Origin: Phaeobacter sp. HF9A
GTDB taxonomy: Bacteria > Pseudomonadota > Alphaproteobacteria > Rhodobacterales > Rhodobacteraceae
Length of the DNA stretch: 33,046 nt
Reading direction: 5' to 3'
NCBI RefSeq assembly: GCF_011806385.1
Contig: NZ_JAATOX010000034.1
Span: 1-33,046 of the forward strand
In this document: positions 19,945 through 31,015 of the stretch, in pieces
How positions within the stretch are numbered: the first letter of the stretch is position 1
How the letters are laid out: the number at the start of each line of letters is the position of its first letter
Made by a program: the position numbers and the translations under genes
The notes under the pieces: model-generated
Database searches by the model: none
The model's input: only the letters and a program-made list of their open reading frames with translations
What the model was told of the DNA's origin: nothing

Positions 19945-20262
19945 TCAGATGATGGTCTTTGCCCCGGCATAGAGACGGCTTGCTTCTCGCTCCGAGGTGC
20001 GATGCATGCTGTGTTTGGACATCATGGCAAGTTCAACGCTGCCATAGGCCATCTGTTTGCGCTTGGGCGGCAAGGGAGCCTCGGTCGGGCTGTCGTCAGC
20101 GGACGCAGCGCGTGGAAAAACGGCGGCGGCGGCGGTTTTTTGCAGCTGCGCCATCGCGTCGGCCAGCTGTTGCCGAGACGCCGATAGGCTGGCCGCTTTG
20201 TACCGTTCTGCCAATGCAGGCAGAGATACGACCGGGGTCTGCTCTTCCTGTAACGTTGCCAT
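19945..20262 (-). CDS. Hypothetical protein, small gene 3 of a trio
   Basis: This 105-residue protein is not recognised. It has an N-terminal helical region (LAERYKAASLSASRQQLADA), an Ala-rich and Pro-rich centre (about residues 43-65), and a basic C-terminal half (PPKRKQMAYGS ... HSMHRTSEREASRLYAG). It has no signal peptide or membrane segment. GAGGAG 8 nt before the ATG supports translation. It is upstream of small genes 2 and 1 on the same strand, separated by about 210 nt. An AT-rich leader lies beyond its start (20290-20400). Function unknown. Confidence 0.65.
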   Translation of the reverse strand: MATLQEEQTPVVSLPALAERYKAASLSASRQQLADAMAQLQKTAAAAVFPRAASADDSPTEAPLPPKRKQMAYGSVELAMMSKHSMHRTSEREASRLYAGAKTII

Positions 20263-20435
20263 CTGACCTACTCCTCAACAAGGCGACTGCTAAATGTTGC
20301 GTGCCTTTGTAGTTTCGGGAGTTTTGCCTAACGTTTTATTTAAAACTGCAGCTATTCAGATGGAATATCGCTAAACGGGAATAAAAAACTCACCTTTCGT
20401 GACCGCAGCGGCAAATTTTTCAGGGCTGGGGCCGC

Positions 20436-21128
20436 TCAGGACCGCGACGGCACGATCTGCTGCGCAATGCCAACCAGCAGCAAATAGACCGAGGTCAGCA
20501 TCAGCGCCATGTTCACCCCTTGACCGGTGTCAAAATCCACCCAGGCGGTCCAGCCCGCGAGGGCGGTCCACACAAGCGCGATCGGCAAGGACACATTGCG
20601 CCAGCGTTGGGTGCGCACGGGATGGATGAACTTCAGCGGCATGAACATGGTAGCCGACAGCAGCGCCACCAGCGTCAGGCTGACCCAGTGGCTGGGTTCC
20701 AGCGCAAAGATGACCAGAACCAGCATATTCCAGCATCCGGGAAAGCCAGAGAAGGAATTATCCTTTGTTTTCATGCGAGTGTCGGCAAAATACATGGCGC
20801 TGGTAAAGGTGATGACGATGATCGCCGCCCAGCCGGTCCAGCCCGACATCAGGTCCGACTTGAACAAGGCAAAGGCGGGAATAAAGACATAGGTCAGGTA
20901 GTCGATGATCAGATCGAGCAACACCCCGTCAAATTGCGGCGCATTGCGTTTGACATCATAGTGGCGCGCCAGCGGCCCATCGACCCCGTCAACGGCAAAG
21001 GCCACAACAAGCCATAGGTACATCAAGTCCCATTTGGCATCTGCGGCGGCCAGCATCGCCAGCATGGCGAAGACGGCACCGGTTGCAGTCAAGAGGTGTA
21101 CGGAGAGGGCGCGAAGTTCAAATGTCAT
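20436..21128 (-). CDS. pcs: Phosphatidylcholine synthase (CDP-diacylglycerol-choline transferase)
   Basis: The 230-residue, multi-pass inner-membrane protein carries the CDP-alcohol phosphotransferase signature in the Pcs-type spacing: DG-x2-AR-x12-G-x3-D-x3-D, read as DGPLARHYDVKR ... DGVLLDLIID (about residues 49-75). Pcs condenses free choline with CDP-diacylglycerol to phosphatidylcholine, a membrane lipid common in alphaproteobacteria. The open frame extends 23 codons further upstream. I use the ATG at 21128 (MTFELRALSVHLLTATGAV) from resemblance to known Pcs starts; its ribosome-binding site is weak. It is divergent from the LptF-like gene, with a 177-bp spacer. Confidence 0.88.
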   Translation of the reverse strand: MTFELRALSVHLLTATGAVFAMLAMLAAADAKWDLMYLWLVVAFAVDGVDGPLARHYDVKRNAPQFDGVLLDLIIDYLTYVFIPAFALFKSDLMSGWTGWAAIIVITFTSAMYFADTRMKTKDNSFSGFPGCWNMLVLVIFALEPSHWVSLTLVALLSATMFMPLKFIHPVRTQRWRNVSLPIALVWTALAGWTAWVDFDTGQGVNMALMLTSVYLLLVGIAQQIVPSRS

Positions 21129-21305
21129 CTGCACGTGATGGCGAATTTCCAACGGGGCTGCAACCCGTAAGCCAGCGGAACAGGTGCCATTTGCCAAAGT
21201 TTGCGCGTGGATCTACTAGTTTATGCGCGATCTGCTATTAGCTGACGTAAACACACGCCCCCGCCGTCTTCCGTGGCGGGCAAATGCAGGGACCCCGCCG
21301 AGCTC

Positions 21306-22442
21306 ATGATTTCCCGATACGATGGATATGTGCTGCGCCAGTTGATCACCATGTGGAGCTTCTTCACGCTGATTCTGGCCGGGGTGTTCTGGATCTCCCG
21401 CTCGATCGGGCTGTTCTCGACCCTGCTTGGCGGCGGTCATTCGCCTTGGGTCTTCTTTGAGCTGACGGCGCTGACATTGCCGACGCTGCTGCGCACGGTG
21501 ATGCCGATCGCCATTTTTGCCGCTGTGGTCTATGTCACCAACCGGCTGCGGCGGGAGAGCGAGCTGGTCGTCATGCAGGCCATTGGCAGCAGCCCGTTCC
21601 GCTTGGCACGGCCGGTGCTGTGGTTCGCCGCGCTGGCGGCGGTGATGGTTGGAACCCTGACCCTGGTGCTGCGCCCGGCCTCGCTGGAGGTCTTTGAGGC
21701 CCGCGAGGCGGAGCTGGAACAGGATCTCGCGGCAAAGCTGTTGAAGGAGGGGACATTCCTGCATCCGATGGACGGCGTGGTGGTCTATTTCGGCCAGATT
21801 GACCCGAATGGCACGCTGCGGGATGTCTATATCTCGGATCAGCGAAAAACCGGGGATAGCCTGACCTATACCGCCTCGCAGGCCTATCTGGTGCAGGAAA
21901 ATGGCGCGGTTTATTCGGTGCTGGTGGATGGCATGGCGCTCCAGTTCGACCCCACGACGGAACATCTGTCGGCGACCTGGTTTGACGATCTGACCGTTGA
22001 TATCTCGCGCTATGGCGGTCTGACCGCCCCGGAGCAGAGCAATATCCGGGCGCTTTCGACCCGGCGGCTGATTTCGGATCAGGATGATCTGATCGCTGAG
22101 GGGCGCTATGGCAAGGGGGACCTGGTGGAGGAACTCAACGAGCGGCTCTCCTGGATCGGGGTCTGCATCGCGGTGGCCTTGGTGGGATACAGCGCGCTGA
22201 TGACGGGGGTTCATTCCCGCTTTGGCCTGTGGACGCAGATCGGCATCGCCTTCGTGATCCTCATCCTGGTGGAGGCCGCGCGGGGCGGGGTGTCGGGCCT
22301 GGTTCAGCAGAACCCGCAGCTCTGGTGGGTCTATCATGTGCCGATGCTGGTGGGCTGTCTGCTGGCGCTGGTTTTCCTGGCGATTGCTGGCCGTCCGATA
22401 CGGATTGGCGGCTGGCTGCGCCGCGCCAAAGACCAGTCCTAG
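21306..22442 (+). CDS. LptF/LptG family permease (YjgP/YjgQ type)
   Basis: The 378-residue inner-membrane protein has the LptF/LptG layout. An N-terminal block of three helices begins MISRYDGYVLRQL and includes TLPTLLRTVMPIAIFAAVVYVTNRLRRESELVVMQAIG. A periplasmic beta-rich domain follows (about residues 120-270, including GTFLHPMDGVVVYF), then a C-terminal block of three helices. LptF and LptG form the membrane channel of the LptB2FG transporter that extracts LPS. The coupling segment RRESELVVMQAIGSS is conserved. Unlike the usual lptF-lptG pair, no second permease gene is adjacent. The ATG at 21306 is preferred over the GTG/other codons upstream. It may be LptF itself or a paralogue. Confidence 0.82.
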   Translation: MISRYDGYVLRQLITMWSFFTLILAGVFWISRSIGLFSTLLGGGHSPWVFFELTALTLPTLLRTVMPIAIFAAVVYVTNRLRRESELVVMQAIGSSPFRLARPVLWFAALAAVMVGTLTLVLRPASLEVFEAREAELEQDLAAKLLKEGTFLHPMDGVVVYFGQIDPNGTLRDVYISDQRKTGDSLTYTASQAYLVQENGAVYSVLVDGMALQFDPTTEHLSATWFDDLTVDISRYGGLTAPEQSNIRALSTRRLISDQDDLIAEGRYGKGDLVEELNERLSWIGVCIAVALVGYSALMTGVHSRFGLWTQIGIAFVILILVEAARGGVSGLVQQNPQLWWVYHVPMLVGCLLALVFLAIAGRPIRIGGWLRRAKDQS

Positions 22443-22651
22443 GCTGCGCTCGGCGCCGCCGCAGGACGAGAAGCGCGGAATATCGCCCAGAACGGATATA
22501 AAAGGCTCAACAATGCTCTACAAATATCGTAGAGCCGGAGCGAAAGACCGGAGCGAAACAGGATCCGGCCAATGGGACGGGGCCACGGGGCCCCTGCCAC
22601 CTGATCGCGGAGAGTCACTCCCCGCAGAAGAAACTAAGGAGCATGGTCATC
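22443..22651 (+). promoter_or_regulatory. Structured leader before the glycosyltransferase operon
   Basis: This 209-nt spacer has a TATAAA-like box near 22496 and a hairpin GCTCTAC/GTAGAGC (22515-22521 with 22529-22535). It also has a 13-bp tandem repeat (22535-22560) and a GC hairpin GGGGCC/GGCCCC (22579-22584 with 22589-22594). A short frame from ATG 22513 (66 codons, ending 22710) overlaps the following gene and could be a leader peptide, with little support. AAGGAG (22636-22641) is the ribosome-binding site of the next gene. Confidence 0.4.
22535..22560 (+). repeat. 13-bp tandem repeat, two copies
   Basis: CCGGAGCGAAAGA (22535-22547) is followed directly by CCGGAGCGAAACA (22548-22560), 12 of 13 bases identical. 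It lies in the leader of the glycosyltransferase operon and its first base overlaps the end of the GTAGAGC hairpin arm. Confidence 0.85.
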
Positions 22652-23494
22652 GTGTCGGCGACAACAACGTCAGCAGAACCGGAGCAGACACCCGTTGTCT
22701 CGATCATTAGCCCGATGCACAACGAGGCCGACAATGTCGCGGCGATGGTGTCGGAATTGGAAGTCGCACGCGCACAGATGCCCGCAAGCGAAGTCATCCT
22801 GGTCGATGACGGCTCGCGCGATGACACCGCCAGGCTGATTGCACAACATATGACGACCCGCCCCTGGTTGCGGCTGGTGCAGCATAAAACCGCCGGTGGT
22901 CAATCGGCGGCAGTGCATAGCGGTGTTCTGGCCGCGCGCGGCCGTGTGGTCTGCACGCTGGATGGCGATCTGCAAAACCCGCCTGCGGAATTGCCCAAGC
23001 TCTGCGCGCCGCTGCTTGCGCCGGACGCGCCGGAACGGCTCGGCCTGGTGGCAGGGCAGCGTCAAAAACGCCAGGACACGTTTTCAAAACGGATGGCGTC
23101 GCGCTGGGCGAACAAGCTGCGGGCCTATGTGCTCAATGATGACACCCGCGACACTGGTTGCGGCCTCAAGGCATTTCGCCGGGACGCCTATCTGCAATTG
23201 CCGTTCTTCAACCATATGCATCGCTACCTGCCGGCGCTGTTCGGCCGCCAGGGCTGGGATGTGGCGCATGTGGACGTGGCGCATCGCGCCCGCAGCGGTG
23301 GCGCGTCGAAATACACCAATTTCCAGCGTGCCATGGTCGGCGTATCGGATCTGATGGGGGTTGCCTGGTTGATCCGCCGCGCCAAAACCGCCAGCCCGCA
23401 AGAGGTGCGCGCGGCGGATCTGCTGCCTGACGGCGCTCAAACGCCTGCCGCCGCCGGGGCGACGGGGCAACATGATGGGGAGGCCGTGCTCTGA
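22652..23494 (+). CDS. GT2 family glycosyltransferase, polyprenyl-phosphate sugar synthase type
   Basis: The 280-residue protein resembles dolichyl-phosphate mannose synthases, ArnC and RgtE. It has VSIISPMHNEADN at the start of the nucleotide-sugar fold, VDDGSRD (about residues 50-56), DGDLQNPPAELP with the metal-binding DxD (about 106-117), and DTGCGLKAFRRDA. It lacks the C-terminal membrane helices of ArnC, so it should act on the cytosolic face. The expected product is a polyprenyl-phosphate sugar for the GT39 enzymes nearby; the sugar is unknown. AAGGAG is only 1 nt from the ATG at 22643 but 10 nt from the in-frame GTG at 22652, so I take GTG. The next gene overlaps by 1 nt. Confidence 0.85.
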   Translation: MSATTTSAEPEQTPVVSIISPMHNEADNVAAMVSELEVARAQMPASEVILVDDGSRDDTARLIAQHMTTRPWLRLVQHKTAGGQSAAVHSGVLAARGRVVCTLDGDLQNPPAELPKLCAPLLAPDAPERLGLVAGQRQKRQDTFSKRMASRWANKLRAYVLNDDTRDTGCGLKAFRRDAYLQLPFFNHMHRYLPALFGRQGWDVAHVDVAHRARSGGASKYTNFQRAMVGVSDLMGVAWLIRRAKTASPQEVRAADLLPDGAQTPAAAGATGQHDGEAVL

Positions 23495-23811
23495 TGCTTG
23501 AGGCTGTTCGCGAATTTTTCAAGGTTGATAGCACCGGAGAGCTGATCTGGGTGATCGTTGGCCTTGCGGCGCAATTGACCTTCTCCATGCGCTTCATCCT
23601 GCAATGGTGGGCTTCCGAAAAAGAGGGCCGCTCGGTCATTCCCGAGGTCTTCTGGTGGTTCTCCATCGGCGGCGGACTGACCCTCTTTGCCTATGCGCTG
23701 CACCGGCAGGACCCCGTCTTTATTCTTGGACAGTCGCTGGGTGTTTTCATCTACGCGCGTAACCTCTGGCTGATTTATGCTGAAAAGCGCGCATCCTCTC
23801 AGGAGGTTTGA
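23494..23811 (+). CDS. Small membrane protein with lipid-A-disaccharide synthase N-terminal (LAB_N) domain
   Basis: The 105-residue protein has three probable membrane helices (about residues 17-36, 50-66 and 75-93) and the LAB_N signature QLTFSMRFILQWWASEKEGRS followed by VIPEVFWWFSIGGG. LAB_N is found fused to LpxB in some bacteria and alone beside GT2/GT39 genes. In such places it is thought to help move polyprenyl-phosphate sugars across the membrane, which is inference. Its ATG overlaps the GT2 stop by one base. Its 3' end overlaps the next gene's proposed start by 35 nt, so the three are probably translated together. Confidence 0.85.
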   Translation: MLEAVREFFKVDSTGELIWVIVGLAAQLTFSMRFILQWWASEKEGRSVIPEVFWWFSIGGGLTLFAYALHRQDPVFILGQSLGVFIYARNLWLIYAEKRASSQEV

Positions 23812-25237
23812 CCCCGTTCACATCGGCTATCTGCTGATCGCGGCCATTGCGGCGCTGCGATTGCTGGTGCTGTGGGCAAGCGATGCGGATCTGTTCTTTG
23901 ACGAGTCGCAATATTGGCTCTGGGGGCAGAATTTTGATTTTGGCTACTACTCCAAGCCGCCGCTGATCGGCTGGGTGATCCGTGCGGTCACTGATCTGGC
24001 TGGCAGTGACAGCGCCTTTTGGGTGCGGGCGGCAGCGCCGCTGTTTCATGCCGCCGCTGCGCTGCTCTTGATGGCGGTGGCGCGGCGCATGTGGCGGGCC
24101 GAGGTTGGTCTAACGGTGGCGCTGACTTATCTCAGCCTGCCGATGATCGCGGTTGGCTCAGTACTGATCTCCACCGATACCATCCTGCTGCCGTTCTGGT
24201 GTGCGGCGCTCCTGCTGTGGCTGCGCCAGATGGAGGTGCCCCGCCTGCGCGATGCCGCGCTAATGGGGCTGTGCCTCGGGCTGGGCATGATGGCGAAATA
24301 TGCGGCGGCCTATTTCCTGATCGGGGCGGGTCTGGCGCTGGTGGCCCTGCCGCACACGAGGCTGCCCTGGCGCAATGGCGCCGTCGCGCTGGTGGTCTCT
24401 ATGGCGGTGATCGCGCCCAATGTGATCTGGAACATGGCCCATGATTTCGCCACGCTCAGCCATACGGCGGATAACGTCGATTGGGTGCGTCAGGATCATG
24501 GCCCGGCGCTGAATTTCGGCAAGCTGGCCGAATTCCTGGCGTCACAGGCGATGGTAATGGGACCGCTGCTGTTTGGCGGCTTCCTCTGGGCGGCCTATCA
24601 CGGCCTGCGCTTTGGTCCGGCCGCCGCGCGCTGGCTCTTGTGCATGTCGCTGCCGGTCTTGCTCCTGGTCTGCGTGCAGGCGCTTTTGTCCAAGGCTTAT
24701 GCCAATTGGGCGGCGATGACCTATCCGGCGGCTGTGCTTCTGGTGGTGCCCTTCCTGCTTCTGCGCGCGCGGCGGCTGTTGTGGGCGGCAATTGGGGTCA
24801 ACCTCTGCCTGAGCCTCGCCATTGCGCTTGGTGCGGCGCAGGTGACCCATTGGATGCGCGGGGATCAATTGCTGCTCAAGCGCTACACGGGACGCGCCGA
24901 GATGGTGCAATCGGCGGCGGCGATTGCCCGCGCCGAGGGGCTGGAGGCGATCATTTCCGACAATCGCCATGTGCTGGCGGATGTCTTTTACTACGGGCGG
25001 GATCTGGGTCTGGCGCTCTATGCGGTGCCACATAGGGGCGCACAGCCGCATTACTACGCCGAACAATTTGCCCTGCCTGCCGAAGGCGCCCCGGCGGAGC
25101 TCTTGTACCTGGGGCAGGGGGCTCCCTGTGCCGATGCGCAGCTTCTGGGGGCGTTGGATACCGCCCCTGGGGCCTATGCCGGGCGCGGCCTCGGCGCCTA
25201 TCGCGCGCCCGCCTCCTGCTGGGAGGGGCGCCCGTGA
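23777..25237 (+). CDS. ArnT-like GT39 glycosyltransferase 1
   Basis: The 486-residue protein has about 11-12 membrane helices. The first periplasmic loop contains LFFDESQYWLWGQNF and then YYSKPPLIGW, matching the ArnT/PMT-type catalytic acidic pair and KPP element. A C-terminal periplasmic domain ends in ASCWEGRP. GT39 enzymes take sugar from a polyprenyl-phosphate donor and attach it to lipid A, LPS core or protein on the periplasmic side. The start at 23777 overlaps the LAB_N gene by 35 nt. An AGGAGG at 23802-23807 lies within the frame but has no usable in-frame start codon after it. The acceptor and the sugar are unknown. Confidence 0.85.
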   Translation: MLKSAHPLRRFDPVHIGYLLIAAIAALRLLVLWASDADLFFDESQYWLWGQNFDFGYYSKPPLIGWVIRAVTDLAGSDSAFWVRAAAPLFHAAAALLLMAVARRMWRAEVGLTVALTYLSLPMIAVGSVLISTDTILLPFWCAALLLWLRQMEVPRLRDAALMGLCLGLGMMAKYAAAYFLIGAGLALVALPHTRLPWRNGAVALVVSMAVIAPNVIWNMAHDFATLSHTADNVDWVRQDHGPALNFGKLAEFLASQAMVMGPLLFGGFLWAAYHGLRFGPAAARWLLCMSLPVLLLVCVQALLSKAYANWAAMTYPAAVLLVVPFLLLRARRLLWAAIGVNLCLSLAIALGAAQVTHWMRGDQLLLKRYTGRAEMVQSAAAIARAEGLEAIISDNRHVLADVFYYGRDLGLALYAVPHRGAQPHYYAEQFALPAEGAPAELLYLGQGAPCADAQLLGALDTAPGAYAGRGLGAYRAPASCWEGRP

Positions 25238-26112
25238 GATCCTCCTTCCTGAGGCCGCTGTTCTGGGTCTGGCTCGGGGCGGCGATGATATTCGCCATGG
25301 TCCCTGGCCTTGATCTCTGGACCTCTGGGCAGTTTTTTGATCCGGCGCTTGGCGGCTTCTATCTGGAGGGCAGCGCCGGGTTGCAGTTTCTGCGTCAGGT
25401 GATCTGGAACCTGTTTGATCTGGTCGCGCTGATTGCGCTCCTCTTCGGGGTGCAGGCCCTCTACACCCGTCACCCGCTGGAAATTCCGGGCCGGTTCTGG
25501 GGCTATTGCGTGACGCTGGTTGTCTTGGGGCCGGGGCTGCTGGTCAATGCGCTGCTCAAATCCCACTGGGGGCGCGCCCGCCCGGCCCATATCGACGTGT
25601 TCGGTGGTGACGCGCATTTCACTCCGGCGCTGCAATATGCGGATCAATGTGTCTCCAACTGCTCCTTTGTGTCGGGCGAGGCCTCCGCTGCCACCGTTGG
25701 GGCAATTATTGCCGGGCTGATCCTGTGGAACGTGGTTCCGCCGCAGCGCCGCCGGTTGCTGGTCTGCGCCATGGTGGGGTTTGCGCTGCTGGGCGCCAGC
25801 CTGCGGGTGTTCATGGGGCGTCACTTCTTGTCGGATGTCATCTGGGCGATGATTTTGATGCTCACGCTGAGCGTCTGGCTCGGGCGTCTGTTCCGCATTC
25901 GCGCGATCCTGCCCCGGGTGACCTGCGCGGCCTTGACGCGTGATGCGCGGGTGTTCTGGCTGGATGTCAGAGGCGTTCTGCTGCGCACGTCGCAGCAGCT
26001 GCGTGCCACAAACCGGCGCCTGCGCCGCCTGTCCGGGCTGGCCATGGGGCGGATGCGGGGTAGCCAACCCAAGGGTGACGAGCCGCAATCCCGACCCGGA
26101 GGCCCGCAATGA
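25234..26112 (+). CDS. PAP2 superfamily phosphatase 1 (variant active site)
   Basis: The 292-residue membrane protein has six predicted helices and the three PAP2 motifs: K109-x6-R116-P117 (KSHWGRARP), SGE at 147-149, and R191-x5-H197-x3-D201 (RVFMGRHFLSD). Motif 2 is normally PSGH, and here Glu149 replaces the histidine. PAP2 enzymes of this kind remove phosphate from lipid A, undecaprenyl diphosphate or phospholipids in the periplasm. Close overlap (4 nt) with GT39 gene 1 and with PAP2 gene 2 places it in the operon. It also has a positively charged C-terminal tail (about residues 225-292). A lipid A phosphatase role is inferred. Confidence 0.8.
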   Translation: MRSSFLRPLFWVWLGAAMIFAMVPGLDLWTSGQFFDPALGGFYLEGSAGLQFLRQVIWNLFDLVALIALLFGVQALYTRHPLEIPGRFWGYCVTLVVLGPGLLVNALLKSHWGRARPAHIDVFGGDAHFTPALQYADQCVSNCSFVSGEASAATVGAIIAGLILWNVVPPQRRRLLVCAMVGFALLGASLRVFMGRHFLSDVIWAMILMLTLSVWLGRLFRIRAILPRVTCAALTRDARVFWLDVRGVLLRTSQQLRATNRRLRRLSGLAMGRMRGSQPKGDEPQSRPGGPQ

Positions 26113-26771
26113 GCGATGTAAAATCCCCAGTAGCTGGTGGGGTCGTGTCCCGGCCCGGCCCAGTGTGGAGGCTTCTGCGCCATGTGATGCGCCAGTTCGG
26201 CCTCTTTGTGATGTTGTCCGTTTTTCTGGTCAGTATCTTGCTGTCGCAACGTACCGCCGAAACCATCGGCGACAATATCCAGATCGCCCTGCCGCTGACC
26301 GGCCTTGGCTGTGCCGTGGCCGAGGGGCGCGGGGTGCAGTATTTTGGCCGTTTCCTGTTGATGGAACTGGCGATTCACGGCTCCAAGACCGCGTTGGGTG
26401 ACGCCGAGATCAACCAGCGCCCCAATGGCAGCGGCAAGGGGTTTCCCTCCGGCCATACCACCGCCGCCGCCTTTGGCGCCACCGCCTTGATTCAGGGCTG
26501 TCTGGCGGGCAACAAGAGCGCGCAGGCGGCAACGGTGATCGCGGCGGGCTATGTCGGCACCAGCCGAGTAGAGGCGGGGGCCCATACCATATGGCAGGTG
26601 CTTGCGGGCGCGGTTTTGGGATGGATCCTACAGGCCGCGACACTGGCCGCATTTGATCGCGCGATGGCGCGGCTTTGGTCCGGCGCCGGGCGCGGCGCTG
26701 CGGTGCTCCGCTCCGAGATGGCGATTGCACGCCGGCGCATCTGGCACTGGCTGCGTCGGGTCCGGCGCTAG
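26109..26771 (+). CDS. PAP2 superfamily phosphatase 2 (dolichyldiphosphatase-like motif 3)
   Basis: The 220-residue membrane protein has an intact PSGH (residues 113-116, GFPSGHTTAA). In motif 3, SRVEAGAHTIWQVLAG, His159 is followed three residues later by Gln163 instead of the usual aspartate. The same HTxxQ pattern is known in eukaryotic dolichyldiphosphatases. Motif 1 is loose: Lys93 and Arg104-Pro105 are 10 residues apart. The substrate may be a polyprenyl diphosphate or a lipid A phosphate; I cannot tell. The start overlaps PAP2 gene 1 by 4 nt. Its stop is 9 bp from that of the convergent GT39 gene 2. Confidence 0.78.
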   Translation: MSDVKSPVAGGVVSRPGPVWRLLRHVMRQFGLFVMLSVFLVSILLSQRTAETIGDNIQIALPLTGLGCAVAEGRGVQYFGRFLLMELAIHGSKTALGDAEINQRPNGSGKGFPSGHTTAAAFGATALIQGCLAGNKSAQAATVIAAGYVGTSRVEAGAHTIWQVLAGAVLGWILQAATLAAFDRAMARLWSGAGRGAAVLRSEMAIARRRIWHWLRRVRR

Positions 26772-26780
26772 GCCGAGGCG

Positions 26781-28436
26781 CTACTGCGTCTGATAGACCG
26801 TCAAATCCACCTCATCCGCGCCACCAATCGCAAATCCCGTGACCTCGCCGATCTGCGTCAAGGCGAGGCCCGTCTCTTGCGCGGCCTGCAAGAATGTCGG
26901 GGCGATCCCCGCATCGACAAAGGCCATGCCGCAGGGCGCCTGGCCAAGCGTCTGCGCCGCAATGAGCGGATCGGCTTCAAAGCGCACCGGCGCGGCATTC
27001 AGCAACATCAGCGATTCTTCGTGATAGCCGGTCGAGATCAGCAGCGGATCGGAGCAGAGATCGGCCGCCTGCGCATATTGCGTCAGCGCCACCGAGGGCC
27101 AGAGTTGCGGCACCCGCGCCAGATGTGCATAGAGCGAGACGCTCATGCCAAGGCTCAGCAACGCCAGCGCCCCGATGGGCAGCAGGTGCAGCGGGGCTGA
27201 CATCATGCGCCAGAACAGCACCACACCACCAAGGCCGAGCAGCAGCCCAAGCCCCCACCAAAGGCTAAGCCCCGCGCCGAGATCGTAGCTGAACCAGCCG
27301 GAGGCGGCGGGGAACAGCAAGGCCAGCATTAGCATCCCCACCAGGAACACCCGGAAGATCAACCGTTGCGTGGTGGCTTCCTTTCGCGCCAGCCACCCGG
27401 CGGCAGCCAGCATCGCCAGCGCGGGATAGGTGGGCAGCACGTAATGCACCAGTTTTGTTGCGGCCAGTTCGAACATCAGCCAGGTCGGCAGGATCCAGGC
27501 CAGGCAAAACACCACCTCCGGGCGGCGCAGGTTGCGGATGACATAGGCCCCGGCAAAGGGCAGAAAGATCGCCGCCGGCCAGAAGGTGACCCACATGGCA
27601 AGCAGATAGGTGCCGGGCGGCGCGCCATGGCTTTCCTGGCCCGCGCCGACCTTGGCCAGCAGGTCCTTGCCCAGCGATTCCGTCCAGAACGCCCCGTCAG
27701 AGCGGATGGTGATGACGATGAACCAGGGCAGCACTAAGAGCAACAAGAGCGGCAGGCCCAGCTTGGGTTGCAGCGGCGCCAGCCAGCGAATTGCGCGCCG
27801 ATGAAGGATCAACAAAACCAGCGTGCTGCCCACAACCACCGGCCCAAGCGGGCCTTTGATCAGGATCGACGCCGCAAGCGCGACCCAGAACAGCAATGCG
27901 ACCGGGCGCGAGATGTGTTCGCCAACCCAGAGCCGCACCAGCACCCATTGGCAGGCGAGAATTGTCGCGAGGAGGGTCGAGTCGGTCTTGGCCAGCCGCG
28001 CCTCGGCGCCAAAGACAAAGCTGCTGGCCAGAAGCGCCCCCGCGAGGAAGGCGGCCTGCGCCCCCATCAATCGGAGCGCAATCAGATAGGTCAGCACCAC
28101 CGACACCGCCGCCGCCAGCGCCGAGGGCAGGCGATAGGCCCAGACATCGTTCAAATGCGCCTCCGCGCCGAGCAGTGAGACAGATGCGCTCTGGAGCCAA
28201 TAGATCCCCACCGGTTTCTTGTAGCGGGTGCCGTCGCCCAGACGGATGTCAATCAAATCGCCGCTCTCGACCATCTGGCGCGAGGCCTGGGAAAAACGGG
28301 TTTCGTCCCGGTCGATCGGCGGCAGGTCAAAAAAACCGGGCAGCACCATCAGGGCGGTGAAGAGCACCAGCGCCAGCTGCGGCAAATATCTGCCGCGCAT
28401 GGCAAAGCGCTGCAAGGCGGAGTCCAGATGTTGCAT
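26781..28436 (-). CDS. ArnT-like GT39 glycosyltransferase 2
   Basis: The 551-residue protein has about 12 helices and clear ArnT features: IDRDETRFSQASRQM (residues 41-55), then GTRYKKPVGIYWLQ. Later come AKTDSTLLAT, LIKGPLGP and the KLVHYVLPTYPALAM motif near residue 350. A periplasmic C-terminal domain follows (about 450-551). The donor should be a polyprenyl-phosphate sugar and the acceptor lipid A or LPS core by analogy with ArnT; neither is shown. AGAGGA lies 9 nt before the ATG. It is transcribed toward PAP2 gene 2, so it is not in the same operon as GT2/LAB_N/GT39-1. Confidence 0.86.
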   Translation of the reverse strand: MQHLDSALQRFAMRGRYLPQLALVLFTALMVLPGFFDLPPIDRDETRFSQASRQMVESGDLIDIRLGDGTRYKKPVGIYWLQSASVSLLGAEAHLNDVWAYRLPSALAAAVSVVLTYLIALRLMGAQAAFLAGALLASSFVFGAEARLAKTDSTLLATILACQWVLVRLWVGEHISRPVALLFWVALAASILIKGPLGPVVVGSTLVLLILHRRAIRWLAPLQPKLGLPLLLLLVLPWFIVITIRSDGAFWTESLGKDLLAKVGAGQESHGAPPGTYLLAMWVTFWPAAIFLPFAGAYVIRNLRRPEVVFCLAWILPTWLMFELAATKLVHYVLPTYPALAMLAAAGWLARKEATTQRLIFRVFLVGMLMLALLFPAASGWFSYDLGAGLSLWWGLGLLLGLGGVVLFWRMMSAPLHLLPIGALALLSLGMSVSLYAHLARVPQLWPSVALTQYAQAADLCSDPLLISTGYHEESLMLLNAAPVRFEADPLIAAQTLGQAPCGMAFVDAGIAPTFLQAAQETGLALTQIGEVTGFAIGGADEVDLTVYQTQ

Positions 28437-28526
28437 GCCGTGGGGTCCTCTCGACGGGCGCGGGATCTGCGCTGCGCGGTCAAAACAGCCTGTGTCTGAA
28501 ATGGGTAACGCCGTGGGCGCGGTGGC

Positions 28527-29462
28527 TCAAGCCTTTGGATGCGCGCGGGCGTAGATCTCCATCAAATGCGCGGTATTCACCGCCGTATAGGCCTGGGTGG
28601 TCGACAGCGACGCATGGCCCAGAAGCTCCTGAATGGCGCGCAGATCGCCGCCCGCCTCCAGAAGATGGGTGGCAAAACTGTGTCGCATCGCATGGGGGGT
28701 GGCGCTCGCGGGCAGACCGAGCTGGCGCCGCGCATCCGCCACCACGCCCTGGATCATGCGGGCATGCAGCGCACCGCCGCGCACACCGCGAAACAGCGGG
28801 CTGGCGGGCTCCTGCGGATGCGGGCAGAGCGTCAGATAACGGTCCACCGCCTCGCGGGCGGCGGCAAGCACGGGCACGATGCGCTCTTTGCCGCCCTTGC
28901 CGGTGATCCTGAGCGTTGCGGGCAGGGGGGCATCACGGCCCAAGAGGCCAAGCGCCTCGGAGATGCGCAGCCCGCAGCCGTAAAGCAGCGTCACCACGGC
29001 GACGTCGCGCGCCGCCACCCAATCGTGGCGGGATTGCAATTCCACCGTGTCGATCATCGCCCGCGCCGCGTCCTTGTCCAGCGGGCGGGGCAGTTTCTTT
29101 TGGAACTTTGGCGTGCGGGTGGAGAGCACGGCGGTGGGGTCAAACCCCTCGCCCCGTGCCAGCCAGCCGTAGAATTTCTTGATGGCCGAGAGCTTGCGGG
29201 CAAGCGAGCGCGCGCCGGTGCCGCTGGCCCGCGCCGAGGCCATCCAGGCGCGCATGTCGCCGGTGGTGATCTGGCGCAGCGCCCCCAGCCCCTGCGGGCC
29301 GCCAAAATGCAGGCTCATGAAACAGAGGAACTCGGTCACATCGCCGCGATAGGCGGTAAGGGTATTTTCCGCCGCACCCTCCAGCGCGCGCAGGCCCTCC
29401 AGCCAGGTTTGCAAGGCATCCCGCGCCGCGGGAGAGACCAGGGTTGGATCCTGCGCGTTCAC
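28527..29462 (-). CDS. xerC: Tyrosine recombinase XerC
   Basis: This 311-residue site-specific recombinase resolves chromosome dimers at dif together with XerD. The N-terminal SAM-like domain (about residues 15-105) is followed by the catalytic domain, with Arg166 (CGLRISEALGL), Lys189 (GKGGKER), His257 and Arg260 (HAMRHSFATHL), His283 (LGHASLSTTQ) and nucleophile Tyr292. Spacing of the last four matches XerC/XerD proteins. It is called XerC rather than XerD because it follows and overlaps (4 nt) a DUF484 gene, the standard xerC neighbour. It is not associated with an integrated element here. Confidence 0.9.
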   Translation of the reverse strand: MNAQDPTLVSPAARDALQTWLEGLRALEGAAENTLTAYRGDVTEFLCFMSLHFGGPQGLGALRQITTGDMRAWMASARASGTGARSLARKLSAIKKFYGWLARGEGFDPTAVLSTRTPKFQKKLPRPLDKDAARAMIDTVELQSRHDWVAARDVAVVTLLYGCGLRISEALGLLGRDAPLPATLRITGKGGKERIVPVLAAAREAVDRYLTLCPHPQEPASPLFRGVRGGALHARMIQGVVADARRQLGLPASATPHAMRHSFATHLLEAGGDLRAIQELLGHASLSTTQAYTAVNTAHLMEIYARAHPKA

Positions 29463-30172
29463 GACAACCAGCGGCGCATGCTGCGCTCAAAAACACCGGC
29501 AAAAAAGGCGAGAAGATCGGTGGCATGCTGCGGGGTGAACTGCTGCGAATCCTCGGAGCCAAAGACCAGAAGACCGGGCAGGCGACCCGCGCCCAGATCC
29601 AGCCGCAAACAGGCCTCGGAGCGCAGTCGCGCACCCAGGTCGCCATAGATCCGGGCAGGGCCAGCCGAGATCTGGCGCAGCAGCACCGGGCGATCGCTGG
29701 AATAGGTGCGCCCCTGCGCAATATAGGAGCTGACAAAACCGGCCTCGGTGAATTTCAGCACATCGCCGACGCGTTCGACGGCGGCACCGGCCTCCTCCTG
29801 CGTGGTCTCCAGAATCAGCGCCAGCGCATCGACGCGCAGGATGTCGCGCAGATCGCCGCGCAGCACCTGCATGAACTCGGCAAAACTCTCGGGATCCAGG
29901 AGACGCAGCACGGCGCGGTGGATCTGATTGGTGCCGGCAAGGTTTTCATAGGCGGCGGCGATGACCAGGCGATGGGTGTCTTCCAGCCGGTCCAGCCGGG
30001 CCTCCAGCCGCTCCATCGCGACGCCGCGCAGATCGACGATATTGGCCCCCATGGCGCGTTCATTGGCCGCGACCAGCGCGCGCATCACATTTGGGTCGTC
30101 CAGCACCATGGCGGGCGCGTCGATGATTTTTTGGCGCAGGCTGTCGTCCAGCCCGGCGTTTGTGCTGCTCAT
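29459..30172 (-). CDS. DUF484 family protein
   Basis: This 237-residue cytosolic protein has the DUF484 pattern: an N-terminal helical segment (LRQKIIDAPAMVLDDPNVMRALVAANE), a coiled-coil-like stretch (residues 50-75) and a GAF-like domain ending in LLVFGSEDSQQFTPQHATDLLAFFAGVFERSMRRWL. DUF484 genes commonly precede xerC in proteobacteria; the function is unknown. It overlaps xerC by 4 nt, so the two are co-translated. AGAGG is about 10 nt upstream of the ATG. Confidence 0.88.
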   Translation of the reverse strand: MSSTNAGLDDSLRQKIIDAPAMVLDDPNVMRALVAANERAMGANIVDLRGVAMERLEARLDRLEDTHRLVIAAAYENLAGTNQIHRAVLRLLDPESFAEFMQVLRGDLRDILRVDALALILETTQEEAGAAVERVGDVLKFTEAGFVSSYIAQGRTYSSDRPVLLRQISAGPARIYGDLGARLRSEACLRLDLGAGRLPGLLVFGSEDSQQFTPQHATDLLAFFAGVFERSMRRWLS

Positions 30173-30202
30173 GTCTTTTGAACCTCTGACCGGGTTTTAT
30201 TC

Positions 30203-30208
30203 ACTATA
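30203..30208 (-). promoter_or_regulatory. Possible -10 box for the DUF484-xerC operon
   Basis: TATAGT on the minus strand (within GTGTTATAGTG) lies about 31 nt upstream of the DUF484 start at 30172. The region 16-18 nt further upstream gives no recognisable -35, so the assignment rests on the -10 sequence and position only. Confidence 0.3.
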
Positions 30209-30303
30209 ACACGGCCATTTCGCCGTTGCGCGCGAAAAATCGGAAAATTCCCGTCGGGTCAGCCGGAAATCCGGCGCGCTGCGGTAAGGTGCTGACCGGC
30301 AAC

Positions 30304-30334
30304 AAAAAATGGCGCCCCGCGGGGAGGCGCCATT
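30304..30334 (-). terminator. Rho-independent terminator after the transaldolase-like gene
   Basis: On the minus strand AATGGCGCC (30334-30326) pairs with GGCGCCATT (30316-30308) around a GC-rich loop, and a run of T follows. It lies about 28 nt after the stop of the aldolase gene. Confidence 0.9.
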
Positions 30335-30361
30335 GCAATCTCAGTCACCCGCGCGTGGGGG

Positions 30362-31015
30362 TTACAGGATCTTGATATCGGCCGCCTTGATGTCGGCAAG
30401 GAAAGCATCGAGCCCCTTGTCGGTCAGCGGGTGGTTCACCATCGCCTTGATCACGGCGGGCGGTGCGGTGATCACATCGGCGCCAATGCGGGCGCAATCG
30501 AGGATATGATTGACCGAGCGAATGGAGGCCGCGAGGATCTCGGTTTCAAACCCGTAGTTGTCATAGACGGTGCGGATGTCCTCAATCAGCTCCATACCGT
30601 CGAGGTTAATATCGTCGAGGCGGCCAACGAAGGGCGAAATGAAACTCGCGCCCGCCTTGGCGGCCAGCAGCGCCTGATTGGCGGAGAAGCAGAGCGTCAC
30701 ATTGACCTTGTGACCATCGTCGGTCAGCGTCTTGCAGGCCTTCAGCCCGTCCCAGGTCAGCGGAACCTTGACGGCGATGTTGTCCGCGATCTCCAACAGT
30801 TTGCGGCCTTCGGCAATCATGGTCTCGGCGTCCACGGCGGTGACCTCGGCGGACACGGGACCATCGACCAGATCACAGATTTCCTTGGTGACCTCGATGA
30901 TGTCACGGCCGGATTTCTTGATCAGCGAGGGGTTGGTGGTGACGCCGTCGACCATGCCGAGATCGTTCAGCTCGGCGATGGCGTCGATTTCGGCGGTGTC
31001 TACGAAGAATTTCAT
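30362..31015 (-). CDS. fsa: Fructose-6-phosphate aldolase / transaldolase (TalC/FSA type)
   Basis: The 217-residue protein matches the short transaldolase subfamily. It starts [20 protein letters not shown] and has [13 protein letters not shown] (residues 24-36) and the Schiff-base lysine Lys83 in [44 protein letters not shown] follows. The family includes true transaldolases and fructose-6-phosphate aldolases, and I cannot separate them from sequence. The frame is open far upstream (to 31450), but only because it runs antisense through priA. AGAGGA 9 nt before 31015 fixes the start. It is divergent from priA across 107 bp. Confidence 0.92.

Follow-up and report, generated by a model that had tools for sequence, protein, structure and literature searches.

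The window, a stretch of 33,046 nucleotides from Phaeobacter sp. HF9A, carries a block of glycosyltransferase (GT) and PAP2 phosphatase genes (Table 1), which raises the question of what envelope molecule such a block modifies, and how. In the initial annotation, made from the sequence alone, it was proposed to dephosphorylate lipid A and replace the phosphate with a sugar, or to add sugar to the lipopolysaccharide (LPS) core. Here we argue that the block probably represents a make-flip-transfer module for envelope glycosylation that acts on LPS in this lineage (a reading to which we assign a probability of roughly 0.6), and that the PAP2 pair supplements a core of GT2, LAB_N and GT39 genes, which is, as judged from gene content and order, an Arn/Rgt-like make-flip-transfer unit.

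Organization of the locus

Table 1. Genes of the block and the adjoining lptF, with positions in the window
Gene	Position	Strand	Family match or remark
lptF	21273..22442	+	TIGR04407; ATG start probably 21306
GT2, ArnC-like, candidate polyprenyl-phosphate sugar synthase	22643..23494	+	PF00535 E 3e-22
LAB_N small membrane protein	23494..23811	+	PF07578 109.8 bits, E 7e-32
GT39a, ArnT-fold GT-C glycosyltransferase	23777..25237	+	PMT_2 E 4e-23
PAP2a, LpxF-like phosphatase	25234..26112	+	PF01569 E 6e-17
PAP2b, divergent PAP2 protein	26109..26771	+	PF01569 E 2.5e-12
GT39b, second ArnT-like GT-C transferase	26781..28436	-	PMT_2 E 3e-15

The genes and families first described for this block are borne out by the open reading frames and their family matches; the GT2 start given there, 22652, is an in-frame GTG inside the longer frame of Table 1. 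Successive genes from GT2 to PAP2b overlap by 1, 35, 4 and 4 nt, so that the tight packing stands, while the description of 4-nt junctions fails for LAB_N and GT39a with their 35-nt overlap. The gene directly 5′ of the cassette is lptF, absent from the original gene list. As had been noted, a second ArnT-like gene (GT39b) converges on the block, its end lying 9 nt from that of PAP2b; the same convergent position is kept in five other loci (G125, G039, G130, L123 and L124), which led us to discard the idea that GT39b has nothing to do with the block. The presence of two GT39 and two PAP2 genes in one place, singled out as unusual, is indeed rare, being found besides the window in only two (G125, G130) of the 56 strong loci described below.

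Conservation of the GT2-LAB_N-GT39 core

Fifty-eight of 199 Rhodobacteraceae-family genomes carry LAB_N, at 59 places (two in one genome); leaving out the window and two weak matches (G171, G090) gives the 56 strong loci. LAB_N is immediately preceded by GT2 in 51 of these loci and immediately followed by GT39 in 41, with a GT39 somewhere in the locus in 53 by profile search; three more loci (L043, L050, L081) have the order LAB_N-GT39-GT2. These neighbourhood counts derive from single-query searches, the GT2/GT39 order partly from a neighbourhood profile. In a scan of named genomes, GT2 accompanied LAB_N in 79 of the best 80 of 584 confirmed LAB_N loci, 78 of them on the same strand, and as the named and family sets share loci (L127 and G189, for instance, coincide in coordinates) the two are not independent. 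Such adjacency indicates that the gene pairing is not due to chance. PAP2a, by comparison, is present in 15/56 loci and PAP2b in 3/56, and conserved adjacency together with optional PAP2 genes defines the core as GT2-LAB_N-GT39. Among cultured relatives, Celeribacter baekdonensis DSM 27375 (L134) has the set GT2-LAB_N-GT39a, and Rhodovulum euryhalinum DSM 4868 (L125) has it with PAP2a added.

Beyond this family, LAB_N occurs beside GT2, usually with GT39, in Pseudomonadota (A. lipoferum 4B, for one, has GT2-LAB_N-GT39), Fusobacteriota and Bacillota, and the LAB_N-GT2 pair is also found in MAGs labelled Acidobacteria and Desulfobacterales. A search of viral contigs for LAB_N, with single-sequence patterns whose reach is limited to close relatives, gave no match, and GT39a was not found among the plasmids searched. 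The initial annotation had looked to a neighbourhood survey for signs that these genes drift apart and serve other acceptors: the core holds together, but a LAB_N unit in a monoderm and the probable exopolysaccharide neighbours of one locus, both discussed below, keep other acceptors in play.

Proposed synthesis, translocation and transfer of the sugar

The window GT2 resembles ArnC both by model (E 9e-28, below cut-off) and by structure-derived sequences (E 4e-23), the latter alignment covering ArnC residues 9–219 of 322. It has no predicted transmembrane helix in a hydropathy scan, which, with the end of the ArnC match at residue 219, agrees with the earlier remark that C-terminal membrane helices are missing. 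The same is true across LAB_N units: among 53 GT2s (the window, 50 directly upstream of LAB_N, and those of L043 and L050) the median length is 253 aa and none has a C-terminal transmembrane pair. Six GT2s fall outside this set, two because of over-long ORF starts (L055, L081) and four because they come from loci without a GT2-LAB_N pair, where LAB_N is either strong and apart from GT2 (L070, L072) or represented by weak matches only (L093, L094). These four have two to three C-terminal helices, and they sit on a branch further from the window GT2 (E 1e-32 to 1e-39), so that subfamily varies along with the presence of helices in this comparison.

LAB_N is predicted to have the three-helix SemiSWEET, or half PQ-loop, fold. 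Its AlphaFold2 model (pLDDT 90.4) has SemiSWEET chains as all of its top 14 Foldseek matches, at probability 1.00 and TM up to 0.84, with E-values of 0.026–0.33 (none below 0.001); the family profile matches SemiSWEET 4x5m at E 0.004, the single sequence has no match among PDB sequences, and the Pfam MtN3-like clan is listed as including LAB_N (excerpt of PMC4499210). Family alignment reveals invariant residues R33, E42, R89 and N90, and in Hymenobacter LAB_N takes a tandem two-domain form like that of full-length SWEET and PQ-loop proteins. We regard LAB_N as a candidate flippase or membrane anchor/partner of GT2, and, from genetic context, as a candidate for the pathway place held in eukaryotes by MPDU1, a PQ-loop protein needed for use of dolichol-phosphate sugars whose mechanism is presented as unsettled in excerpts of two papers (PMC4281381, PMC11365447). 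Titles and abstracts, among the matches listed, held nothing on point about LAB_N as a flippase. If the assignment is true, so small a protein of the MPDU1 fold class would offer a tractable model for the flipping of lipid-phosphate sugars, a step for which, to our knowledge, the flippase is in many polyprenyl-phosphate systems unknown or merely inferred.

The proposed comparison of the GT39 proteins with ArnT was favourable for both, by predicted fold for GT39a and by sequence for GT39b. The GT39a model (pLDDT 92.2) finds ArnT 5ezm and 5f15 as best Foldseek matches (E 9e-8 and 9e-7), above OST and PMT folds that it also matches, and its sequence has no match among PDB sequences; GT39b matches ArnT 5ezm at E 1e-11 (phmmer). 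Together with the ArnC homology of GT2, these matches uphold the suggestion of a polyprenyl-phosphate-sugar pathway of the ArnC/ArnT or RgtE/Rgt kind.

The donor of the module is likely a UDP-uronate, and the sugar a uronic acid, because some LAB_N units lie beside genes for its synthesis. In L181, L061, Paenibacillus and Cetobacterium the unit is joined without a break by genes for an SDR epimerase and a UDP-glucose dehydrogenase, while L143 has the dehydrogenase alone beside it and a Paracoccus plasmid the epimerase alone; within reach of 142 loci, the dehydrogenase occurs in seven and the epimerase in 12, with neither in most. The HF9A genome also encodes a 65% identical epimerase; the epimerases pass no NCBIfam cut-off. 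Lipid A with alpha-(1->1)-GalA is reported from A. lipoferum (excerpt of PMC7663294), and titles and abstracts, among the matches listed, held nothing on point about uronic acids in Roseobacter or Rhodobacterales lipid A.

The PAP2 genes

The best match of PAP2a is the LpxF model NF045633 (E 4e-24, 85.9 bits over residues 16–216, below the cut-off of 400), against which an Agrobacterium relative scores 88.5 bits. Taking the PAP2 catalytic motifs (KX6RP, C2, RX5HX3D) as a yardstick, PAP2a carries the whole set, with SGE rather than SGH as its C2, invariant in all 16 aligned sequences. PAP2b has KX10RP, PSGH and RX5HX3Q and thus departs from the LpxE catalytic set, the C3 Asp being replaced by Gln; its KX10RP and H-X3-Q are found in 4/4 aligned sequences. 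It matches the LpxE model at E 3e-6 (below cut-off) and, as a profile, the LpxE structure 6ebu at E 0.0056. From these motifs and matches, lipid A dephosphorylation is plausible for an LpxF-like PAP2a and only weakly indicated for PAP2b. Two genomes, G039 (99% complete) and G199, keep lptF-GT2-LAB_N-GT39a-GT39b with no PF01569 match across their assemblies.

Linkage to lptF

The cassette-side gene is the only lptF found in the HF9A genome (94.8% complete). It scores 226.7 bits against the LptF model (cut-off 230; scored on the protein from 21330, hence slightly truncated) versus 68.7 against the LptG model, and its product falls in the LptF clade of our tree. There are two PF03739 genes in this genome, this lptF and an lptG that adjoins lptD, surA, pdxA and ksgA, with no lptF there; the usual place of lptF is beside lptG. 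The sole lptF found adjoins the cassette in four further genomes (G125, G039, G199, G200). These relocated LptFs form a clade in the LptF tree (support 99/95), cassette proteins are 46–83% identical across the lptF-linked genomes, and comparison of HF9A, L123, L124 and G125/G039 found no DNA similarity outside the unit. Only about 10 kb separates lptF from the cassette in the sister Chachezhania. The LptG tree fails to recover the corresponding group, Chachezhania lying inside it (0% of bootstrap trees with one change). We rejected the idea that lptF was imported along with the cassette by a donor beyond this group, as LptF trees nest the relocated LptFs among native ones.

This linkage is the best evidence that LPS is the likely target in this lineage, and it supports the target first suggested. 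Phylogeny indicates that the relocation was probably one event in one clade, and hence it counts as one observation; moreover, the spacing in Chachezhania means that proximity plus rearrangement could explain it. It nonetheless exemplifies in nature the movement of a gene for LPS export together with a module that probably modifies LPS.

A working model and its alternatives

We propose that the soluble ArnC-like GT2 would make a polyprenyl-phosphate sugar, probably a uronic acid, in the cytosol, and that LAB_N, likely as a dimer, would hold GT2 at the membrane and/or carry its product to the outer leaflet, a role suggested by its predicted fold. GT39a and GT39b would then transfer the sugar to periplasmic-face acceptors, which the lptF linkage suggests are most likely two lipid A/core positions, before LptB2FG extracts LPS. 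For PAP2a, removal of a phosphate from lipid A is the probable role; PAP2b may act on a second phosphate or in turnover of the carrier. A more specific version, at somewhat less than even odds, is that LAB_N proteins are bacterial polyprenyl-phosphate-uronate carriers of the MPDU1 kind, linking a soluble GT2 to a GT-C transferase, and that in this Rhodobacteraceae clade the unit captured lptF, tying LPS chemistry to export.

Two alternatives concern what the parts do. LAB_N might merely anchor or activate the soluble GT2, as DPM2/DPM3 do for DPM1, with another protein (SMR/EamA, DedA) flipping the product. Small membrane subunits are described as required by DPM1 (excerpt of PMC4281381), LAB_N is closely paired with GT2s that have no membrane helices, and an EamA-type gene (family F16, one member tested) precedes GT2 in 3/56 loci; the predicted transporter fold, the four invariant residues and the tandem form in Hymenobacter, however, suit a carrier better, making a purely anchoring or activating role rather less likely. 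The phosphate-for-sugar exchange originally proposed, in which PAP2a/PAP2b would correspond to LpxF/LpxE and GT39a/GT39b would be RgtD/RgtF-like, each phosphate giving way to one GalA as in Rhizobium, has in its favour the two PAP2 and two GT39 genes, the closeness of PAP2a to LpxF and the weak likeness of PAP2b to LpxE. In Oligotropha, moreover, the homologues of rgtE, lpxE and rgtF bear locus numbers close to one another, and lipid A carries two GalA (excerpt of PMC7663294). Yet most GT2-LAB_N-GT39 loci lack the PAP2 pair, G039 and G199 have both GT39 genes but yield no match to PF01569, PAP2b combines the Gln for the C3 Asp with KX10RP spacing, and both PAP2 proteins fall below the curated LpxF/LpxE cut-offs. 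We thus consider such an exchange unlikely, and a plain LpxE/LpxF plus RgtD/RgtF set was rejected because the PAP2 genes are optional.

The acceptor may also differ, the module decorating exopolysaccharide, capsule or protein with the lptF neighbour an accident of rearrangement. Monoderm Paenibacillus, which is without lipid A, has the LAB_N unit along with dehydrogenase and epimerase, so LAB_N is not lipid-A-specific; the genes downstream of the L135 cassette, read from protein starts, are presumably an exopolysaccharide block; GT-C relatives of the OST and PMT folds glycosylate proteins; and the Chachezhania spacing fits as well. Caulobacter is described as having similar lipid A and rgtE/rgtF homologues (excerpt of PMC7663294) but, as a control in our search, gave no LAB_N match; this chemistry can thus do without LAB_N. 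Against a different acceptor stand the lptF linkage in five genomes despite divergent cassette proteins and no flanking DNA similarity found, the ranking of ArnT above PMT/OST for GT39a, and ArnT and LpxF/LpxE as the nearest named families. We judge it improbable, and retain LPS as the preferred acceptor.

Comparison with known systems

The enteric ArnC-ArnEF-ArnT system, which places L-Ara4N on lipid A, shares with this block a GT2 synthase, a small membrane carrier and an ArnT-fold transferase. It differs in that the GT2s here (the window and 52 others) lack ArnC-type C-terminal helices, that the carrier candidate is of the LAB_N/SemiSWEET fold rather than SMR, and that a second transferase and PAP2 genes are added; ArnE/ArnF form the Arn flippase (excerpt of PMC9574504), and a scan of the block and its surroundings, ten proteins in all, turned up neither these SMR-type proteins nor ArnA/ArnB/ArnD. 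The RgtE/RgtD/RgtF plus LpxE/LpxF systems of Rhizobium, Mesorhizobium and Oligotropha have in common with it their alphaproteobacterial hosts, the GT2, GT39 and PAP2 families and a probable UDP-uronate donor, whereas here, comparing by family and published locus tags, LAB_N is a regular partner, PAP2 is optional and lptF has joined. LAB_N has the predicted fold of SemiSWEET and the MtN3-like clan (SWEET, PQ-loop, MPDU1), but its R33, E42 and R89-N90 are unmatched in two SemiSWEET alignments, the E42 neighbourhood excepted, and it lies in a glycolipid operon; SemiSWEET transports free sugars, whereas for LAB_N only the fold is predicted.

Three-component glycosylation of the GtrA-GtrB-GtrS/GtcA type combines a synthase, a small flippase and a GT-C transferase. 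The GT2-LAB_N-GT39 core shares this three-part logic, with LAB_N in place of a GtrA-type flippase and GT39 in place of a transferase of the GtrS type.

Gene order and conservation

LAB_N, a small PF07578 membrane protein present as a single copy in the Phaeobacter sp. HF9A genome, is encoded in a tightly packed block (see table) that is not distinct from its surroundings in base composition (G+C 0.60–0.67 throughout 21–29 kb). Sigma-70-type promoters gave 0 matches in 21100–28600, against 1.3 expected from shuffling.

Features of the block and its neighbours in the window
Feature	Position	Strand	Remarks
GT2-LAB_N-GT39a-PAP2a-PAP2b block	22643–26771	+	overlaps of 1, 35, 4 and 4 nt in gene order
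GT39b	26781–28436	−	convergent on the block, 9-nt gap
lptF	21273–22442		directly upstream of the block
phosphatidylcholine-synthase-like gene	20436–21197		divergent from lptF, about 75 nt apart; scores under curated cut-offs

LAB_N occurs in 58 of 199 Rhodobacteraceae genomes, HF9A counted, and 58 further LAB_N places were fetched for neighbourhood comparison, of which 56 have a strong LAB_N gene. In these 56 loci a GT2 glycosyltransferase gene lies directly upstream of LAB_N on the same strand in 51 and a GT39 gene directly downstream in 41, with the alternative order LAB_N-GT39-GT2 in three further loci (L043, L050, L081); by profile, GT39 is present in 53 and missing from L070, L072 and L090. 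PAP2a (PF01569) is part of 15 loci and PAP2b of three, in one of which (L049) it is several genes distant. As the order is kept, the flanking genes differ between loci and PAP2 genes are missing from most, GT2-LAB_N-GT39 is a portable unit to which the PAP2 genes are options. The initial annotation had grouped GT2, two GT39 genes, two PAP2 genes and LAB_N as one candidate remodelling locus; in the survey GT2, LAB_N and GT39 stay together and the PAP2 genes are dispensable to the arrangement.

Among the flanking genes, whose families were named from one tested member each, a LacI-type gene lies directly upstream of the unit in 12 loci (for example L041 2586–3644) and downstream in a 13th; the upstream position suggests sugar-responsive control of the unit. 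Three units are located between rpoC and rpsL, and five have secG and/or pyrG as neighbours. Only the window and genome G125 were seen to have the complete arrangement of lptF, the PAP2 pair and two GT39 genes; G130 has both PAP2 and both GT39 genes in full order without lptF, and G039, G199 and G200 (the last two represented by loci L123 and L124) have lptF-GT2-LAB_N-GT39a and a convergent GT39b without the PAP2 pair. A PF01569 search gave zero matches in G039 and G199, and in G200 one, away from the unit.

LAB_N and its partner GT2

SemiSWEET chains fill the top 14 structure matches of the predicted LAB_N model (pLDDT 90) at probabilities of 0.98–1.00, with a best E of 0.026 and none below 0.001, and the LAB_N profile matches SemiSWEET 4x5m by sequence (E 0.004). 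This fold assignment is itself not new, since PMC4499210 already reports LAB_N as a member of the Pfam MtN3-like clan. Nineteen columns are invariant among 47 aligned LAB_N sequences, including Q27, R33, Q37, E42, Q80, R89 and N90. A Hymenobacter protein with two tandem LAB_N domains, and a marginal MtN3_slv match under cut-off, resembles full-length SWEETs. In Hymenobacter radiodurans (L221 3608–4276) the tandem LAB_N has a two-component system and an RND efflux operon as neighbours, with no GT2 among the genes listed, in an incomplete plasmid gene table, for the surrounding 8 kb. Two-component systems adjoin the LAB_N gene or unit in Ilyobacter, Cetobacterium, Hymenobacter and Thalassospira. 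The literature searched yielded no role of LAB_N in flipping.

The GT2 is ArnC-like, matching ArnC structures. None of 53 GT2s from LAB_N units (median 253 aa) has a C-terminal helix pair by a hydropathy scan, a crude one that finds one or two segments in most LAB_N proteins against three long helices in the model; 47 have no predicted transmembrane segment and six have one, at residues 20–55 in five and 183–201 in one. At four loci without a GT2 adjoining LAB_N, the nearest GT2s (319–340 aa) have two or three C-terminal helices, these being more distant homologues, so that subfamily is not constant in the comparison. Among the best 80 of 584 confirmed LAB_N loci, a set that overlaps the family set, the hydropathy threshold was exceeded in 16 of the 79 GT2 ORFs; the 15 of these that were listed have one segment each, never a C-terminal pair. 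The scan found no transmembrane segment in six annotated LAB_N-linked GT2s (Fusobacteriota, Azospirillum, Thalassospira, Pelagovum, Paracoccus) or in that of Paenibacillus. As GT2s paired with LAB_N lack C-terminal helices and unpaired ones have them, a GT2 seems to have either LAB_N or helices of its own, which fits LAB_N as anchor, carrier, or both.

Transferases and PAP2 proteins

GT39a has no match among PDB sequences, and ArnT provides the top two fold matches to its model (pLDDT 92; E 9e-8 and 9e-7; TM 0.58–0.66). GT39b matches ArnT by sequence. PAP2a is closest to the LpxF model, with a score below the curated cut-off, and K, RP, SGE, R, H and D are invariant in 16 aligned sequences. 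PAP2b is more distant and weakly LpxE-like; in it and three relatives Q replaces the C3 Asp (4/4) and the first spacing is longer (KX10RP). Beyond the block, the HF9A genome has one more PAP2 match, a marginal one.

Relocation of lptF and the probable link to LPS

Genomes have as a rule two PF03739 genes (G110 has an additional marginal third match), adjacent in 33 of 36 genomes and split in HF9A, G125 and G039; the pair is also split in G199 and G200, and unsplit in Chachezhania and Agrobacterium B6. The only lptF found in HF9A lies outside the lptG-lptD-surA operon (lptG place G000:C262, L101), as in four relatives. At the lptG place of four split genomes (HF9A, G039, G125, G200) pepA borders lptG/lptD and no lptF is there; for G039 and G200 this place was taken from the PF03739 search, an overlapping long ORF masking lptG in the gene calls.

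In their tree the five moved LptFs group together as a single clade (99/95) that adjoins Chachezhania and is nested among native LptFs; this is most simply read as one relocation of the native gene, with a single change in 98% of bootstrap trees. The LptG tree, from which the G199 LptG was left out, places Chachezhania inside the moved-lptF group at weakly supported forks, with no bootstrap tree having a single change, so that there may instead have been two moves, or a return. In Chachezhania lptF is at its native place with the cassette about 10 kb off, which may be the ancestral neighbourhood of the two. Outside the lptF-to-GT39b unit no DNA similarity was found among HF9A (flanks 20000–30500), L123, L124 and G125/G039, the last two having flanks in common; lptF and the unit thus appear to have remained linked while their surroundings were later rearranged. 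It is mainly because of this linkage and its persistence, weighed as one observation from one lineage, that we rank LPS first as the target of the module.

Donor sugar

Profiles run over 142 stretches (the window, L037–L094 and L123–L205) found UDP-glucose dehydrogenase (UGD) in seven and SDR epimerases in 12. In L181 and L061 both genes directly adjoin the unit, in L143 UGD alone. Annotated records give GT2-LAB_N-SDR-dehydrogenase-GT39 in Cetobacterium somerae and LAB_N-GT39-GT2-epimerase in Paracoccus sp. AK26. Paenibacillus cellulosilyticus has the order UGD-epimerase-GT2-LAB_N (L203 1862–5333), its proteins each 51% identical to their C. somerae counterparts. This monoderm has LAB_N, though the name refers to lipid A biosynthesis; being monoderm, it must have an acceptor other than lipid A. 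Two tested UGDs exceed the nucleotide-sugar dehydrogenase cut-off; three tested epimerases pass none, and we therefore only infer that they are UDP-uronate 4-epimerases. HF9A has a 65% identical epimerase at G000:C250:1422–2432 (L206), with one TGA counted within the match, perhaps the terminal stop.

Proposed mechanism and comparison with known systems

Building on the observed gene families, order, conservation and lptF linkage, and on predicted folds, we propose that the cytosolic GT2 probably loads polyprenyl phosphate with a uronic acid; that LAB_N, probably as a dimer, would dock the GT2 and/or carry its product outward; that GT39a and GT39b would transfer the sugar to two LPS acceptor positions prior to Lpt extraction; and that PAP2a, possibly also PAP2b, would prepare or modify the acceptor.

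Azospirillum lipoferum 4B has GT2-LAB_N-GT39, and lipid A of A. lipoferum is reported with alpha-(1->1)-GalA in PMC7663294, which describes that of Caulobacter as similar; a control search of Caulobacter gave no LAB_N match, which argues against a general rule linking LAB_N to such lipid A. The same paper gives Oligotropha lipid A two GalA, and its rgtE, lpxE and rgtF homologues neighbouring locus numbers. The proposed module would work much as ArnC-ArnEF-ArnT and the Rgt system do, but it departs from the Arn type in that the window GT2 lacks C-terminal helices and the block has no SMR carrier.
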